From: Sulfurimonas sediminis
Lineage (GTDB): Bacteria > Campylobacterota > Campylobacteria > Campylobacterales > Sulfurimonadaceae
Length of the DNA stretch: 64,000 bases
NCBI RefSeq assembly: GCF_014905115.1
Contig: NZ_CP041235.1
Coordinates: forward strand, 248,001 to 312,000
Direction of reading: 5' to 3'
This document shows positions 33,320-40,086 of the stretch, in pieces (within the stretch, counting starts at the first letter, position 1; each line of letters begins with the position of its first letter). The notes under the pieces are model-generated. The model was not told where the DNA came from and made no database searches. It saw only the letters and a program-made list of their open reading frames with translations. Both the position numbers and the translations under genes were made by a program.

Positions 33320-34486
33320 CTACAATTTTTTTCCAAAAACCAATACTTGAAAATATCTCCCTCCCCAAATCAAAAAGAGCAAGAGCCAGGTAGTAAAAGA
33401 GATGTCAAACAAAAACCCAAGCCCCCATCCAAAAGCTATGTTCATGCTGTATAAAGCACGGAGCAGCACAACCAACTGAATTGACAGAAATATTTTAGTT
33501 GCCAGTTTGTCTGCCTGTGGCGGTTGTCCCGAATGACCGAGTGTTACACGTGTTCCAAAACCTATAAGCAGTGTTGTTAAAAAACCTATGGCCAACAGGT
33601 GTACATTTAAAAAGAAAAAAGAGGTGTCTAAAAATATTTCTGCACTCAGGCTGAGGGCTGAGAGAAAAAAGGATACTGGTAACCAAAAGAGTGCAAGATG
33701 CAGCACCCATAGAATAGGAGGGGATTGCAAAGGGTGAAGATCCCAGCGTTTAAACTCAAAAAACATATACACTGCGAGCAGCAGATCGACAATTATTTGT
33801 ACACTTTTGATATCTGCAGAAGCAAAGATACTCTTTAAAACAAACAAAACAAAAACAATTTTGACAAAATTTTCATTTTTACTTGCAAAAGAGTGGGAGA
33901 AAAAAGGAATCATTCTCTGTCCTACACTAAAAGCAAGAAAAATCAGATACATGTAAAAAGAGAGAGTGATAGCAACCGGTAAAATTTCCGGTATGAATAA
34001 AGAGAGTATAAAAAGAAAATTACCAAAGAGTCCAAAGTAGTTTGCATTGAGTATCCAAAATGAGTCTGACTTATCTGCTGCCATTCCTGTTTCATAGATG
34101 TTTTTTAGTTTCAATACTATAAAAATCTGCGCTGTCAGACTGATAATCATCGCGCCGAGTACAAGGGCTTCAGAGCTGAAAACACCGACAAGAAAAAGCA
34201 GTGATGCAAGGGTATTTGCATGAAAAATATTGGCATAGTATTTTTTTGCTATCACCTGTGTCTGGTTAAAACGCGGGAAAGTTGTAAATAAGAACCCTGT
34301 GAAAAAGTTTGTAAAAACCAAAAATATCAAAGAGTAGCTGTGAAAAAGCAAAAGCGTTACATGTAAGGAGAGTATGCCTTTGTATTGTAATGCAAAAACG
34401 AGCATCATAATGATTGCATTGAGTATTCCAAGTAAGAAAAATGGCTGATGCGGTTGTGATAAAAAATAGTTTTCTTTTGTCTGCAT
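33320..34486 (-). CDS. nnrS: NnrS family membrane protein
   Basis: 388 residues, about twelve hydrophobic segments. HQPFFLLGILNAIIMM at the start, HSYSLIFLVFTNFFTGFLFT and FPRFNQTQ are NnrS features. NnrS is a heme/copper membrane protein linked to nitric-oxide stress tolerance in denitrifiers. It follows the radical SAM gene by 12 nt in the same direction. No nitrite or NO reductase gene lies in the window. Confidence 0.88.
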   Translation of the reverse strand: MQTKENYFLSQPHQPFFLLGILNAIIMMLVFALQYKGILSLHVTLLLFHSYSLIFLVFTNFFTGFLFTTFPRFNQTQVIAKKYYANIFHANTLASLLFLVGVFSSEALVLGAMIISLTAQIFIVLKLKNIYETGMAADKSDSFWILNANYFGLFGNFLFILSLFIPEILPVAITLSFYMYLIFLAFSVGQRMIPFFSHSFASKNENFVKIVFVLFVLKSIFASADIKSVQIIVDLLLAVYMFFEFKRWDLHPLQSPPILWVLHLALFWLPVSFFLSALSLSAEIFLDTSFFFLNVHLLAIGFLTTLLIGFGTRVTLGHSGQPPQADKLATKIFLSIQLVVLLRALYSMNIAFGWGLGFLFDISFTTWLLLFLIWGGRYFQVLVFGKKL

Positions 34487-34498
34487 AACGCTACCGTC

Positions 34499-35758
34499 CT
34501 ATAATAAAAATTCCTGACCAAGTTTTTTGCAGTATGCTCCGAGCATAGCACGTTCAAAGTCATTGTTTGTAGAGTATTGATATCCAAATGTTTTGGCCCA
34601 CATGTGATGTTCTTCCATACAAAGGTAGAAAAAGACTTTGTCTTCACCCTGTTGCCATGGCGCAAAACTTTCATAGGCATGTTTGAACATTTCAACTTTT
34701 GTCGCATCAGGATACGATGTCTTTCCGCTTGCATCTTCATGCGGGATTTGCGTAATCTTACTTCTAAATTCACGCTCACGCAACTGTTTTATGACAGGCT
34801 TTATAAAGGTAAGCGTCCCGAAACTGACAAGGGCGACTTCTTGTGGAGAGAATTTTAGTATAAGTTCTTCATATACTTCTTGATATTCGTCAAGATACCC
34901 TTCATATTCGACTATAGGATGAAAATGAAAGCCGACTTTAACTCCTTTGTTTGCCATTTTTCGGGCGGCTGCTATACGTTTTGCAAGTGAAGCGGTTAAA
35001 TGCTCTTCGTTGTCTATAATGGTTTGGGTATTGAGACTCCAGGTGCAGAGTATGTTTTTGGGCACTTCATTTTCAAGCAGATATTTTATATTGTCCGATT
35101 TTGTTTTAAATTCTAAAATGACATTGGGATTTTTCTTCGCAAAGGTAAAAAGAGCATCCAAAACACCCTCACGGTTGCCAAACATCAGCGAATCTGATGC
35201 CTGACCGGTTCCGATATGGTAGGTTTTGTTTGGATCAAGTTGCAGATTTAAGAGTTTGTCCGCAAAACTGCTGTCAAAGGTAATAGTATTTTGATTGTAA
35301 AAGCTTTGAATAGAACAATAAGAACAGTCAAAACCGCAGCTCTCCACCGCATCAAGTGTCAACAGATTACAGCAACGTGTCTTTTCACTTGCTACCGGAC
35401 ACAGACCAAGTCCAAAACCCTCTTTTGACGCTGTTTTAAAGGTATATTTTTGTTCTTGGGGGATATTCTTGAGGGTAAAGTTTTTATAGGAATTTGGTTT
35501 GTTGCGTATGTCTTCATAGGCTTTTTTAAGCCTGGAAAAAACAACTTTTCTTTGGGGATGCTCGGGAAATATTGCAGTGATTCTTTTTTCATCCCACATC
35601 CCCAAATCTCTCGCGAAATTGATTATCTGTTTGATTTCCTGATAGGAAAATCTGTACTCAAAGGATTTCTCTTTGATAAACTCCTGTTCATGTTTGGGGA
35701 GTTTGTTAAAAAAACTGTTTTCTATAGCGTTTGTAAATTTTTCTGCGTATGAATTCAT
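34499..35758 (-). CDS. Spore photoproduct lyase-like radical SAM protein
   Basis: 419 residues. The [4Fe-4S] motif CGFDCSYC (Cys139, 143, 146) lies in ESCGFDCSYCSIQSFYNQ, typical of the SPL family. HIGTGQASDSL and LEFKTKSDNI are further SPL-like blocks. In sporeformers the enzyme repairs a thymine dimer; this organism is unlikely to sporulate, so a different substrate or general DNA repair is possible. C-terminal ERAMLGAYCKKLGQEFLL has an extra Cys. Confidence 0.82.
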   Translation of the reverse strand: MNSYAEKFTNAIENSFFNKLPKHEQEFIKEKSFEYRFSYQEIKQIINFARDLGMWDEKRITAIFPEHPQRKVVFSRLKKAYEDIRNKPNSYKNFTLKNIPQEQKYTFKTASKEGFGLGLCPVASEKTRCCNLLTLDAVESCGFDCSYCSIQSFYNQNTITFDSSFADKLLNLQLDPNKTYHIGTGQASDSLMFGNREGVLDALFTFAKKNPNVILEFKTKSDNIKYLLENEVPKNILCTWSLNTQTIIDNEEHLTASLAKRIAAARKMANKGVKVGFHFHPIVEYEGYLDEYQEVYEELILKFSPQEVALVSFGTLTFIKPVIKQLREREFRSKITQIPHEDASGKTSYPDATKVEMFKHAYESFAPWQQGEDKVFFYLCMEEHHMWAKTFGYQYSTNNDFERAMLGAYCKKLGQEFLL

Positions 35759-35784: not shown

Positions 35785-36279
35785 TTATTTTATAGGGATA
35801 AGTCTTGCTTTTGGTTTTTTAACTTCTGTTTTAGGAATTGTAACGGTTAATATACCGTTTTCAAATTTTGTTGCGAGTTTGCTTTCGTCAATATTTTTAG
35901 GCAATTGAATAGATTTTTGAAACTCACCGTAAAAAATCTCTTTTTTGACAAAATCTTTTGATTTTTCTTCTTTTGACTCTTTTTTTTCACCTTTTACAGT
36001 CAGAATCTTATTCTCATCAATAGAAAGTTTAATATTTTTTTTGTCAACACCCGCGAGATCAAATTTTAAGACTATTTTGTCTTTAGCATCCTGAATGTCC
36101 GTTCTTGGATAACTGAAATTATTTAATGCCGAACTGCTTAAGTGAGACTCTATCAAAGAGTTGAAATACTGGTTCATTCTTGCAAAATCAGCATCATAGG
36201 GATTCATTGTATCCATACTCGCGAATGCAGATCCGGCCAGCAAAGTTGAAAGCAACAGACTGCTTAGTAGTTTTTTCAT
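35785..36279 (-). CDS. Hsp20 family chaperone with predicted signal peptide
   Basis: 164 residues. Residues 1-20 (MKKLLSSLLLSTLLAGSAFA) are a clear Sec signal with an AFA cleavage site. The alpha-crystallin domain follows at about 60-155: VLKFDLAGVDKKNIKLSI, FQKSIQLPKNIDESK and FENGILTVTIPK. Hsp20 proteins are normally cytoplasmic holdases; this one should be periplasmic. It is the third of a tandem of three hsp20 genes, 28 nt after the second. Confidence 0.9.
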   Translation of the reverse strand: MKKLLSSLLLSTLLAGSAFASMDTMNPYDADFARMNQYFNSLIESHLSSSALNNFSYPRTDIQDAKDKIVLKFDLAGVDKKNIKLSIDENKILTVKGEKKESKEEKSKDFVKKEIFYGEFQKSIQLPKNIDESKLATKFENGILTVTIPKTEVKKPKARLIPIK

Positions 36280-36307: not shown

Positions 36308-36733
36308 TTATTGGATGCTGATGTTTTTTGTCTTTTTGGATTCGAGTTTTTCAAGAGTCAGATAGAGTCTTCCGTCTTCAAATTTTGCCTGAATTTTATC
36401 TCTGTCTATATTGTCAGGCAGGATAAAACTTCTTGAGATGACGCCAAAATTTGATTCGCAAAGATAGTAATCATCCTCTTTGACCTCATTTTTAAATTTT
36501 CTGACCGCTGTCACAGTCAGATAGTCATCTTCGACTTTTAATTCTATATCTTCTTTTTTAACACCCGGTAAATCAACCTCGATTGTGAAGGTGTCATTAC
36601 GATGTTTTGCAAGGTTTGCCAGAGGAAGGTGTGATGCTACATTGTGAAATGTATCTTTGACAACTTCCAAACCTTTTTCAACTTTCTCTTCCGCTTTTTC
36701 CACTAACTCTTTTGATGTTTGTATGATATCCAT
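36308..36733 (-). CDS. Hsp20 family small heat-shock protein
   Basis: 141 residues. An amphipathic N-terminal helix (ELVEKAEEKVEKGLEVVKDT) precedes the alpha-crystallin domain with VDLPGVKKEDIELKVEDDY, SRSFILPDNIDRDK and FEDGRLYLTLEK. An ATP-independent holdase, probably cytoplasmic. Middle gene of the hsp20 trio, 11 nt after the first. Confidence 0.93.
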   Translation of the reverse strand: MDIIQTSKELVEKAEEKVEKGLEVVKDTFHNVASHLPLANLAKHRNDTFTIEVDLPGVKKEDIELKVEDDYLTVTAVRKFKNEVKEDDYYLCESNFGVISRSFILPDNIDRDKIQAKFEDGRLYLTLEKLESKKTKNISIQ

Positions 36734-36744
36734 GATAATCCTCC

Positions 36745-37188
36745 TTACTCGATTTCAATTTTTTTCGTTGTGTCTTTTTCAACTTTTAATTTTGGTATAG
36801 TGATTTCAACCACGCCGTTTTCACCTGTAGCACGGATATTTTCACTGTCTACTTTTTCAGGGAGTGTAAAACTTCTTGAAAAAGTACCGTAGGCACTCTC
36901 TATTCTGTAGTAGTCCTCTTTTTCCTCTTCTTTTTTGACTTCTCTTTTGCCTTTGATGGTTAAAATGTTTTTATCTACACTGATTTCCACATCTTCTTTT
37001 TTTATACCAGGCAGGTCTAGCTCAATGTAATAGGCATCAGCTCCCTCTCTGGTATTGACAGCCGGTACAAAGTCAAAAACTTCTCTTGGCTCTTCGCTGT
37101 TTTGTGTTTCGAGTGCGTTAAAAAATTCATTAATTAAATCAAATTTTCTTGTATTTTGTATTGGGTTTCTATGTCTTGTCACTAACAT
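36745..37188 (-). CDS. Hsp20 family small heat-shock protein
   Basis: 147 residues with an alpha-crystallin domain: IELDLPGIKKEDVEISVDKN, YGTFSRSFTLPEKVDSENIR and ENGVVEITIPK. The C-terminus lacks a clear I-x-I motif apart from KKIEIE. Leading gene of the hsp20 trio, 59 nt after the Crp/Fnr gene. A TTGACT on the minus strand near 37230 may be a -35 element. Confidence 0.93.
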   Translation of the reverse strand: MLVTRHRNPIQNTRKFDLINEFFNALETQNSEEPREVFDFVPAVNTREGADAYYIELDLPGIKKEDVEISVDKNILTIKGKREVKKEEEKEDYYRIESAYGTFSRSFTLPEKVDSENIRATGENGVVEITIPKLKVEKDTTKKIEIE

Positions 37189-37247
37189 GGTTCACTCCTT
37201 AAAATTTTTATTTAAGAAATGATAGTCAATTTTGAAAAAGTATTTTG

Positions 37248-37931
37248 CTACTTAAGTAGCATTTGGGAGGTTTTGTCCAAAAGTTTTTGAAGATTCTTTA
37301 CTTTTATGTTGCGTCTGCTGCTTTCTATAATGTCGTCGGCTTTGAGCTGTTTGATGCTTCTCTCTATCACATGTCGGACCGTTCCGAGCAGTTTTGCTAT
37401 TTCGCTGTTGGAGAGATTTTGCAGGAGTTGGTAGCGAAATCTGTGATTTGGGTTTAAATTTTCTACCAAGAGGTTCAAAAAGCGCTCTTTTGTATCATAC
37501 AGGGCAAGTTCGGTTGCCAGTTCCTCTGTATATCGCATATGTGCAGCGAGATAGGGAAAGAATTTTTTGTTAAAAGTGGCATCATGTTCGAGCCAGTAGC
37601 GGACTCTCTCAATGGGAAGACGTAAAATATTGGAATCTTCGATAACCTCATAAATAACCTCATGAGGTTTGCCGTCAAGCAGGGAAATGACATCAAACAT
37701 ATCTCCGCGCTTATAGATAAAGAGGGTTTGCTCTTTGTTTGTCTGAAAGTTTATCTGATATGTTTTGACCCTGCCGTTAACGACTATATAGAAATATTTG
37801 AGCAGATCATCGGGATAAAAAGGGGAGGACCCTTTTTCATACTCAAAAGGTTTGGCATATCGGAAAAACTCTTCTTCAAAAGTTTTGTTTGTATTGTCCA
37901 AAAGTTCTAATTGTGTTGAATTGTTTTGCAT
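37248..37931 (-). CDS. Crp/Fnr family transcriptional regulator
   Basis: 227 residues. A cyclic-nucleotide-binding beta-roll at about 25-135 (VNGRVKTYQINFQTNKEQTL, KRGDMFDVISLLDG) and a winged helix at about 165-215 (LSNSEIAKLLGTVRHVIERS). No N-terminal Cys cluster, so not an oxygen-sensing FNR. Ligand unknown. It precedes the hsp20 trio in the same direction and may control it (inference). The palindrome GCTACTTAAGTAGC at 37247-37260 overlaps its stop codon. Confidence 0.9.
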   Translation of the reverse strand: MQNNSTQLELLDNTNKTFEEEFFRYAKPFEYEKGSSPFYPDDLLKYFYIVVNGRVKTYQINFQTNKEQTLFIYKRGDMFDVISLLDGKPHEVIYEVIEDSNILRLPIERVRYWLEHDATFNKKFFPYLAAHMRYTEELATELALYDTKERFLNLLVENLNPNHRFRYQLLQNLSNSEIAKLLGTVRHVIERSIKQLKADDIIESSRRNIKVKNLQKLLDKTSQMLLK

Positions 37932-37951: not shown

Positions 37952-39052
37952 TCATGACTGATGTTGTAAAAAGTGCAACACATCAATGGTATTTCCCTCA
38001 AAAACAACAGGCAAGGGACTTTTTTTGATTTGGTAGTCATACATCGGATCATAATATCTTTCAAGGAGCAGGGCAATCCACTCCAAATAGAATGTTTTTG
38101 CCTCTGCCTGGGTATCTTGGGAATAAGCTTTGTCAAAAAGTTGTGCAAGTTGTCTGTAAAGCTGGTTACCCAGACGTTTTTGGATTCTTTTGAGCCCTGA
38201 TTGCACATTTTGTGCCCATTTTTTGGGACCTTCTTCTCCGTATTGTAATGCATACTCTTTGAGTGCGCCAAGAACATACTCCTCATAGGTTATGAGTGCG
38301 CGAACCTCAATCGGAGTCTGTAACAATACAAGCTCTCCCTGCATAAAATTGTCATATACGGGTTTTGGGATAAATGTTCTGCCGATATTATGGCTTTCAT
38401 GCTCCAAAACAAGATGGGTAAAATTTTTATGATGAAACTGTATGAGTCTGTAGGCAAGATTGTTCTCAAAATCAATCTGTGAAGGCTGTGCATTGACAAA
38501 ACTGCCAAAGGAAGAACCCCGATGATGCGCAACACCTTCAAGATCAATGGCATTTTGCAGTTTATTCAAAAGAATGGTTTTTCCCGAGCCTGTTCTGCCT
38601 CCCAAAATGAGGGTAGGTGTTATCGCACTGATGTCTTCACTCTGTTGCATCAAAAAATTGCGAAAAGCCTTGTACCCGCCTTTGAGCCGGGTAATATCAA
38701 TATTGCTCTCTTTGAGCCACTCCTGTGCAATCCCTGAGCGTTGACCTCCCCTGAAACAGTAAAGCTTTGCCTCGGGATTTTTCTTGAGGTAGTCTTGCCA
38801 GAGGTGGACTCTTTTCTCTTTTCCCTCATTTTGAATAAGAGACTCGGCCAGCTTTATGGCTGCGCTATTTCCGGCCTCTTTGTACCGTATACCGACAAGT
38901 CTGCGTTCTTCATCATTAAGTATAGGCAGATTTGTGGCATTGATAAACTTCCCTTTTTCAAACTCAACAGGGGCGCGGACATCAAGAAGAGGTGTTTCAT
39001 TGAGAACAATAGACAAAAAATCATCTGTTACATTTGTAATATTACCGGACAA
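37952..39052 (-). CDS. mnmH: tRNA 2-selenouridine synthase
   Basis: 366 residues. An N-terminal rhodanese domain (PLLDVRAPVEFEKGKF) with the catalytic Cys in KLYCFRGGQRSG, then a P-loop domain with LGGRTGSGKTILLNKL. This is the MnmH/SelU/YbbB fusion, which swaps sulfur for selenium at the tRNA wobble position using selenophosphate. TTG start, 2 nt after the selD stop, so donor and user of selenophosphate are coupled. GAGGT lies 12 nt upstream. Confidence 0.94.
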   Translation of the reverse strand: MSGNITNVTDDFLSIVLNETPLLDVRAPVEFEKGKFINATNLPILNDEERRLVGIRYKEAGNSAAIKLAESLIQNEGKEKRVHLWQDYLKKNPEAKLYCFRGGQRSGIAQEWLKESNIDITRLKGGYKAFRNFLMQQSEDISAITPTLILGGRTGSGKTILLNKLQNAIDLEGVAHHRGSSFGSFVNAQPSQIDFENNLAYRLIQFHHKNFTHLVLEHESHNIGRTFIPKPVYDNFMQGELVLLQTPIEVRALITYEEYVLGALKEYALQYGEEGPKKWAQNVQSGLKRIQKRLGNQLYRQLAQLFDKAYSQDTQAEAKTFYLEWIALLLERYYDPMYDYQIKKSPLPVVFEGNTIDVLHFLQHQS

Positions 39053-39054
39053 AG

Positions 39055-40086
39055 TCAGACTACCTCTACAAGATGTTTGCTTGCTTTACATGTGAATCCG
39101 ATTGGTTCGAGGCAAAGCCCTGCATTTTTTGTAAGTGCCAAAAAGGCTTCTTTGGTATCTTTTCTTACCACACACAGCAGTCCGCCGGAGGTTTGTGCGT
39201 CGCACAAAATGTTCTGCTGTTCTTGTGTCATCGGAGAGATTTTATTTCCGTAACTCTCAAAGTTTCTGCGTGTGCCTCCAGGAATACAGCCCATCTTTAA
39301 GTATTTTTTGACATTTTTGAGTGTCGGTACTTTGTCAAACTTTATAACGGCGCTGATATTGCTTCCCTCGCATATTTCGCTCAAGTGCCCAAGCAGACCG
39401 AAACCTGTGACATCGGTAAGCGCGGTTACGCCTTCTAATGCCGAAATTTCTGCGCCGATTTTGTTCAGGGTACACATGGCTTCTACGGCAATATCTATAT
39501 CACCCTCGGCAATTTTTCCCTGTTTTTGTGCCGTTGTCAGTATGCCTATACCCAGCGGTTTTGTAAGGTAGAGTTCGCAATCAATTTCGGCAGTATCGTT
39601 ACGTTTGAGATGTTCGTTTTTTGCTATTCCGGTGACCGCAAGTCCAAATATAGGCTCGGGAGAATCGATGCTGTGTCCGCCGGCAAGCGGAATACCCGCT
39701 TCTTCACAAACAGAGCGACCGCCGTCAATGACTTCGCGTGCCACATCCGCCTCAAGTTTGTCAATCGGCCAGCCGAAGATGGAAATTGCCATCAACGGTT
39801 TGCCGCCCATGGCATAAATATCACTGATGGCATTGGTGGCTGCTATGCGTCCGAAGGTAAAAGGATCATCAACGATAGGCATAAAAAAATCAGTCGTGCT
39901 TAAAACAGAAGTCCCGTTGCCCAAATCAAAGGCCGCTGCATCATCTTTTGAGGAATTGCCGACAAGCAAATTAGGGTAAGCAACAGTCTTTCTGGCAGTC
40001 GTTAAAATAGTGTCAAGCAGTTTTGGTGAAATTTTACAGCCGCAACCCGCCCCGTGACTGTATTGTGTAAGTTTTATATCTTTCAT
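39055..40086 (-). CDS. selD: Selenide, water dikinase (selenophosphate synthetase)
   Basis: 343 residues. [20 protein letters not shown] carries the catalytic site with Cys (not selenocysteine) at the active position. Further blocks are [33 protein letters not shown] and [12 protein letters not shown]. It makes selenophosphate from selenide and ATP. First gene of the selD-mnmH pair. The user seen here is tRNA modification; no selA or selB is in the window. Confidence 0.97.

Follow-up and report, generated by a model that had tools for sequence, protein, structure and literature searches.

SP1, a predicted exported small heat-shock protein (sHsp) of a Sulfurimonas-type bacterium, is probably a periplasmic ATP-independent holdase, whose operon would be activated by a CRP/FNR-family protein at a conserved palindrome as part of a proteostasis regulon that would reach cytoplasm, inner membrane and periplasm (we put the probability of this reading at about 0.7). 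Read directly from sequence are the export signal and its conservation, the domain, the IxI tail, the gene order, the palindrome and its spacing, the co-occurrence of the regulator and the sites before other genes; from these we infer the cleavage, location and chaperone activity of SP1, the co-transcription of its operon, binding and activation by the CRP/FNR protein and the inducing signal. The window (the whole stretch of DNA that was analysed, 64,000 nucleotides) is C1:248001-312000 of a complete 2.32-Mb genome, and the locus comprises the following features.

37248..37931, minus strand: CRP/FNR-family regulator (cNMP_binding and HTH_Crp_2 domains, PF00027 and PF13545 above cut-off)
37246..37261, minus strand: perfect 16-bp palindrome TGCTACTTAAGTAGCA, putative operator, overlapping the stop codon of the CRP gene
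37219..37224, minus strand: TATCAT, putative -10 box, 21 nt after the palindrome
36745..37188, minus strand: cytoplasmic hsp20 A (hsp20A), first gene of the probable operon, no signal
36308..36733, minus strand: cytoplasmic hsp20 B (hsp20B), no signal
35785..36279, minus strand: SP1, predicted exported Hsp20/alpha-crystallin small heat-shock protein, ORF of 164 aa
36220..36279, minus strand: Sec/SPase I signal peptide of SP1, residues 1-20, predicted cleavage AFA^S (20/21)
35788..36099, minus strand: alpha-crystallin domain of SP1, residues 61-164 (PF00011 and AF2/Foldseek)
35791..35799, minus strand: C-terminal I-P-I oligomerisation-type motif of SP1, residues 161-163
34499..35758, minus strand: SPL-like (spore-photoproduct-lyase-like) radical SAM protein, 26 nt downstream of SP1
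33320..34486, minus strand: NnrS-family membrane protein, 12 nt beyond the SPL-like gene

A plus-strand reading of 35785-36279 is ruled out by stops throughout, and the SP1 gene lies on the minus strand. Genes on this strand follow one another in the order CRP/FNR regulator, hsp20A, hsp20B, SP1, SPL-like and NnrS, with successive gaps of 59, 11, 28, 26 and 12 nt, and the position of SP1 directly after two signal-less hsp20 genes agrees with what an earlier note on this DNA had described. The stretch from hsp20A to SP1 yielded no terminator-like site. These three genes, possibly together with the SPL-like and NnrS genes, probably form a co-transcribed operon, and they are the only Hsp20 genes of the genome, which has exactly three. 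The SPL-like protein has 419 aa and scores far under the curated cut-off for spore photoproduct lyase; organisms of the Sulfurimonas type that carry it presumably form no spores. Its gene was considered as a functional partner of SP1 and rejected, being present in 72 of 100 genomes of the genus and far commoner than SP1.

The alpha-crystallin domain of SP1 is complete, as the earlier note had described: the HSP20 profile PF00011 aligns with residues 61-164 over its whole length (1-102 of 102) with E = 1.8e-22 and 79.8 bits against a cut-off of 20.8. The best sequence match in the PDB is 1gme, a wheat-type Hsp16.9 (E = 8.5e-18), and the best fold matches returned by Foldseek for an AlphaFold2 model of SP1 are sHsps, again with 1gme on top. 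This model, built from 13 sequences, has a mean pLDDT of 74.6, with means for blocks of 10 residues of about 90 across most of the domain and of 47-51 at residues 1-30; it places a helix at residues 30-47. A conserved arm, YDADFARMNQYFNSLIESHL and variants, precedes the domain. The I/V/L-x-I/V motif near the C-terminus is present in 26/26 SP1, 27/27 A and 11/11 B proteins and in 0/8 exported Hsp20s of a second signal-peptide type (SP2) and 0/13 membrane-anchored (TM-anchored) Hsp20s. Because this tail is kept in all SP1 proteins, SP1 should oligomerise as a normal sHsp; SP2 and the anchored exported forms, judging by the missing tail, perhaps do not. Ratios of dN to dS for the whole SP1 gene are well below 1 where dS is measurable (e.g., 0.082/1.157), and the substitution pattern indicates that the gene is under purifying selection.

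Export of SP1 to the periplasm is strongly indicated by its N-terminus, MKKLLSSLLLSTLLAGSAFA^S, which has two Lys, an uncharged hydrophobic core (mean Kyte-Doolittle value of 2.41 over 8 residues) and AFA at positions -3 to -1. Signals were called with a simple Sec rule devised in the course of this analysis (n-, h- and c-regions, and small residues at -3 and -1), not with SignalP, and SP1 conforms to this Sec/SPase I pattern. The protein contains no Cys, which excludes a lipoprotein with Cys at +1, and no twin Arg (no RR in MKKLLSSLLLSTLLAGSAFAS), which excludes Tat. The signal with AFA cleavage that the earlier note had seen at residues 1-20 is supported by comparison with relatives (L and G numbers denote loci and genomes of this analysis): 25/26 SP1 orthologues pass the rule, against 0/52 cytoplasmic Hsp20 rows, and the single SP1 failure, L014, has a Glu ahead of the core. 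The rule is also passed by 8/8 SP2 proteins, by 6 of the 66 window genes, SP1 among them, and by 72 of 5000 shuffles of SP1 residues 2-40. Two frame-broken SP1 genes (L020 and L094) were excluded from trees and signal counts, and the A genes of L021, L107, L114, L165, L170 and L189, whose automatic starts lie too early, were not counted as exported. Among the 26 SP1 proteins, mean pairwise identity is higher in the domain (0.51) and the tail (0.53) than in the signal (0.40) and the arm (0.36); Ala at position 20 is nearly invariant in 13 aligned orthologues. In the closest SP1 pair, the signal alone has a dN of 0.072 and a dS of 0, values from a very short stretch, next to 0.018/0.265 for the whole gene. 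As these alignments indicate, the residues of the signal vary and its pattern is retained.

The regulator is a protein of 227 aa, and its best matches of known structure are NtcA, CRP-family and FixK2 proteins; it has no cysteines and is therefore not an Fe-S FNR. Matches to it at E<=1e-20 occur in 50 of 100 genus genomes. In 42 of them an hsp20 gene is no more than 3 kb away from the regulator gene; hsp20 is elsewhere in three genomes, in one of which (G009) the regulator stands beside a degenerate exported Hsp20-like gene, and none was detected in five. Regulator and hsp20 thus co-occur with counts of 45/5/18/32 (Fisher p = 2.4e-8, without correction for relatedness).

If the transcription start is placed 6-7 nt past the -10 box, the centre of the palindrome falls at about -41.5, which we take to be the class II position of CRP/FNR activators. 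A palindrome followed by a -10 box precedes hsp20A in 33 of 38 regulator-bearing congeners when automatic gene starts are used and in 35 of 38 with tblastn starts, which add G022 and G064; three upstream regions were too short and were excluded from the count. In the three congeners G031, G048 and G083 the regulator is present and no palindrome was found before hsp20A, which there stands by itself, at a great distance from the regulator. Among congeners without the regulator, 1 of 11 has the palindrome (G057, an assembly that is 67% complete and in which no regulator was detected), and none of 4450 shuffles has it. Across 57 sites the spacer from palindrome to -10 box is 21 nt in 50 and 22 nt in 7, and positions G2, A5, C6 and C15 of the palindrome are invariant. 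At least 18 sites lie in genomes without a CRP gene directly upstream (19 were scored away from the regulator gene, and the lack of a detected regulator in G057 makes 18 the safe number); coding constraint is consequently no explanation for the palindrome there. The element and its spacing before the SP1 operon are conserved across congeners, and the action of the CRP protein on it is putative. As side observations, inverted repeats of varying sequence stand just before the hsp20A ribosome-binding site in L194 and L196-L199, where a hairpin in the 5' leader is possible; no repeat of this kind was seen in the window, and Rfam returned nothing useful at the locus.

Since the consensus was derived from the same hsp20A loci that were later counted, independent support comes from sites before clpB, dnaK, htpX and a DUF1931 gene. 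In the genome of the window, TGCYAC-N4-GTRGCA occurs once without mismatches (hsp20A) and in 24 places with up to one mismatch, compared with 11 for the reversed control. When a TAnnnT box 20-22 nt further along is also required, seven places remain in the loci examined, three of which directly precede genes with the exact 21-nt spacing and a good -10 box (hsp20A, clpB and htpX); the remaining four look like chance, two of them having no gene within 300 nt. The identities of ClpB (E = 6.1e-142, 372 residues covered) and HtpX (E = 8.4e-104, above the curated cut-off) were confirmed. In the same genome dnaK is preceded by TGCAACCTAGGTTGCA-21-TACAAT, and the DUF1931 gene (PF09123, E = 4.8e-47; presumably of a histone-like family) by TGCTACATAAGTCGCA, 21 nt and CATAAT; the latter gene lies in G000:C1:2165800-2168300 (L256). 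A second genome, G149, whose SP1 is about 82% identical, has TGCAACTAAAGTAGCA-21-TATACT upstream of clpB and TGCAACTTAGGTTGCA-21-TATAAT upstream of dnaK. A scan of 800 kb of the two genomes with the strict form (0 mismatches, spacer of 21) returned three matches, which are the two dnaK sites and the clpB site of G149, plus two one-mismatch places that resemble chance. The htpX and DUF1931 sites were each seen in one genome and with one mismatch.

In the mechanism that we propose, the functional steps of which are drawn from family knowledge, the CRP/FNR protein encoded just upstream would act under proteotoxic stress at the palindrome in the class II position and would activate hsp20A-hsp20B-SP1, dnaK, clpB and htpX. 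Hsp20 A and B would then hold cytoplasmic clients for DnaK and ClpB, and HtpX would clear inner-membrane proteins. SP1, made as a Sec precursor and cut after AFA, would form oligomers in the periplasm that bind envelope proteins unfolded by stress and hold them until they refold spontaneously or are degraded. Given that sHsps work without ATP, the periplasm, which has none, would suit them naturally. We lean slightly towards a broader view, in which a CRP/FNR-family activator is the main heat-shock-type proteostasis switch of these Sulfurimonas (TGCNAC-N4-GTNGCA in class II position before hsp20A-hsp20B, dnaK, clpB and htpX) and an exported sHsp was recruited in some lineages, so that cytoplasm, inner membrane and periplasm would come under one switch.

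The strongest rival for the inducing signal is nitric oxide. The module may answer nitric oxide instead of heat, with an NnrR/DNR-like sensor, SP1 guarding periplasmic denitrification enzymes and NnrS handling NO; we consider this possible and would not bet on it. Counting the window, 10 of the 14 loci with the order CRP-A-B-SP1 have NnrS immediately after the operon; in L160 it immediately precedes hsp20A. The genome of the window has a gene of the cytochrome cd1 family. In the accessible part of PMC6710368, the NnrR regulon of Bradyrhizobium includes an Hsp20 gene and nnrS is divergent from nnrR. The NnrR-NnrS systems of denitrifiers share with the SP1 locus a CRP/FNR regulator, an NnrS neighbour and an Hsp20 gene in the regulon (PMC6710368). 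The operators differ, however, being TGCTAC-N4-GTAGCA at the SP1 locus and TTG-N8-CAA in NnrR-NnrS, and the targets here include clpB, dnaK and htpX, a heat-shock-like set behind one palindrome. No NnrR-type box (TTGA-N6-TCAA) was found near the operon promoter, and the window as a whole has two where 3.9 are expected; NnrS is also missing in L118-L120. That the palindrome is read by a different regulator, the CRP/FNR gene being a mere neighbour, appears doubtful. Pair-less loci examined, in which SP1 follows the CRP gene, retain that gene and have no palindrome upstream of SP1; yet the palindrome follows the regulator among congeners (35/38 with it, 1/11 without), and its 5-bp half-sites spaced by 6, in a 16-bp palindrome centred at -41.5, have CRP-like geometry. 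CIRCE is absent from the 64-kb window at up to 3 mismatches, and the locus is not assigned to an HrcA regulon; the window's one HAIR-like match has 3 mismatches, fewer matches than expected by chance.

Two other alternatives concern SP1 itself. It could be exported without being a general holdase, either as a chaperone for one envelope client or as a structural envelope protein that reuses the fold. Its patchy distribution, the conserved arm ahead of the domain and the unrelated genes beside some orthologues would suit such a role, which we nevertheless judge improbable given that the domain is complete, the IxI tail is kept in 26/26 as in ordinary oligomeric sHsps, and SP1 is grouped with cytoplasmic sHsps behind a proteostasis-type promoter. 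Much less credible still is that the hydrophobic N-terminus stays uncleaved or is no signal, leaving the protein cytoplasmic or membrane-bound. The call comes from our simple rule; against this stand the short core, the positive start and the A-x-A end, whose Ala at -1 nearly all orthologues retain, and the TM-anchored paralogues are clearly distinct, 2/13 passing the same rule.

The holdase reading has to accommodate a restricted distribution. SP1 was found in 18 of 100 sampled genus genomes, a broken copy in G013 counted, and G053 adds a contig-edge fragment; being present in a minority of the genus, its function is accessory. A named, cultivable relative that carries an orthologue is Sulfurimonas indica NW8N (L080); the genus assignment of the window follows from named relatives such as this one that share the protein family. 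Among 32 SP1 loci at which gene order was examined, 14 have regulator-A-B-SP1 (including L088, whose assembly has gaps and whose pair is fused), one has A-B-SP1-regulator (G042), nine have regulator-SP1-SPL without an intact hsp20 pair, one has a broken SP1 behind the regulator, and seven are elsewhere, away from this arrangement and in some cases beside unrelated genes. The constant neighbour of SP1, as gene order indicates, is the CRP/FNR regulator gene and not the cytoplasmic hsp20 pair. In one of the nine loci without an intact pair, a fragment of hsp20B lies between regulator and SP1 (L078:4866-5000, 96% over 26 residues); this probable deletion scar points to loss of the pair and retention of SP1 at that locus. 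The earlier note had inferred a periplasmic holdase made with its cytoplasmic relatives, giving two-compartment protection. What stands is an exported sHsp behind a cytoplasmic pair in a probable operon, with other exported types in the same slot; manufacture with the pair is not constant, given the nine loci without an intact pair and the seven elsewhere. The stress link of the locus derives from the regulator gene and the palindrome, neither of which the note contained, and the two-compartment view is plausible but depends on that regulatory link.

Other features of these loci deserve mention. In L082, L083 and L118-L120, which have no hsp20 pair, SP1 is preceded by a shared, conventional-looking promoter (TTTACT-18-TATAAA-like). 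The frame-broken SP1 of L020/L094, from a symbiont assembly, is joined straight to the end of the regulator gene. At L122:6315-7992 an SP1 orthologue is followed by an AhpC-type peroxiredoxin and then a Fur-family regulator; L123 has the same downstream arrangement, and both loci come from another family (protein families were named for L122 only). A plasmid search returned ordinary Hsp20s below 60% identity.

Exported Hsp20s of several types recur behind the A-B pair. The next gene is such a protein in 25 of 53 loci (SP1 in 14, SP2 in 1, a degenerate signal-peptide form in 3 and a membrane-anchored form in 7), a proportion that is not a random-sample rate since the loci were partly chosen for exported forms. 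This recurrence in the third slot supports the usefulness of pairing cytoplasmic with envelope sHsps. Membrane-anchored Hsp20s without the IxI tail (L101-L105, L108, L109, L106, L110, L112 and L117) are often third in the A-B operon or immediately behind hsp20A. A degenerate exported Hsp20-like family with a LEAF-type signal end (L164, L170, L172 and L211:859-1341) adjoins A-B and/or a second CRP/FNR type. In a tree of 99 rows and 96 columns, a branch with SH-aLRT 90 separates SP1 from the remaining rows, and SP1 clusters with the other exported types. A topology that joins SP1 with A/B was not rejected (AU 0.27), and a single clade of all exported forms is compatible (AU 0.75); the tree does not decide whether SP1 arose by tandem duplication of hsp20A/B.

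SP1 shares the alpha-crystallin domain, the N-terminal arm and the C-terminal IxI tail with Hsp16.9, HspA and IbpA/B. The folds of HdeA/B and SurA are unrelated to alpha-crystallin. With these proteins, and with Spy and Skp, SP1 would share its proposed role of ATP-free periplasmic holding (PMC8144458, PMC4516975, in the parts accessible), and the folds of Spy and Skp are likewise unrelated to that of SP1 (PMC4516975, same part). The accessible parts of these two papers name periplasmic ATP-independent chaperones of other folds only, none of them alpha-crystallin. IbpA/B, by comparison, are cytoplasmic (PMC8144458, accessible part), whereas SP1 has a predicted cleavable Sec signal. A further sHsp outside the cytoplasm is Mycobacterium leprae sHsp18, which in E. 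coli was found in the outer membrane and periplasm without a signal sequence, its transport unexplained in the accessible part of PMC2629775; of the two, only SP1 has a signal. In the genome of the window, profile searches gave no match for Skp/OmpH, one sub-cut-off match for Spy/LTXXQ and several sub-cut-off matches for HtrA. Searches of open-access literature found no description of a periplasmic, exported or secreted alpha-crystallin Hsp20, a weak absence since subscription papers lie mostly outside it. As a protein, SP1 is of a known type, the alpha-crystallin sHsp, and its predicted Sec-exported form appears to be new. With an sHsp that is conserved, full-length and exported, one can ask whether an alpha-crystallin holdase works without the hand-over to DnaK/ClpB on which it relies in the cytoplasm.

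The set of regulator, palindrome and chaperone genes is more surprising than the SP1 protein. HrcA/CIRCE and HspR/HAIR repressors control dnaK, clpB and sHsp genes; the SP1 locus differs from both in having a CRP/FNR-type palindrome in activator position. To our knowledge, the known controls of chaperone genes in the phylum are repressors, to which the CRP/FNR reading, if true, would add an activator, and it would explain a possible coupling of cytoplasmic and envelope protection. In the open-access literature searched, FNR, clpB, htpX and hsp20 appear together only in unrelated Lactiplantibacillus genome papers. Elsewhere in the window (37952-40086), a Rhodanese-domain protein adjoins an AIR-synthase-like protein, neighbours that we take to resemble the selenium pair SelU/SelD.
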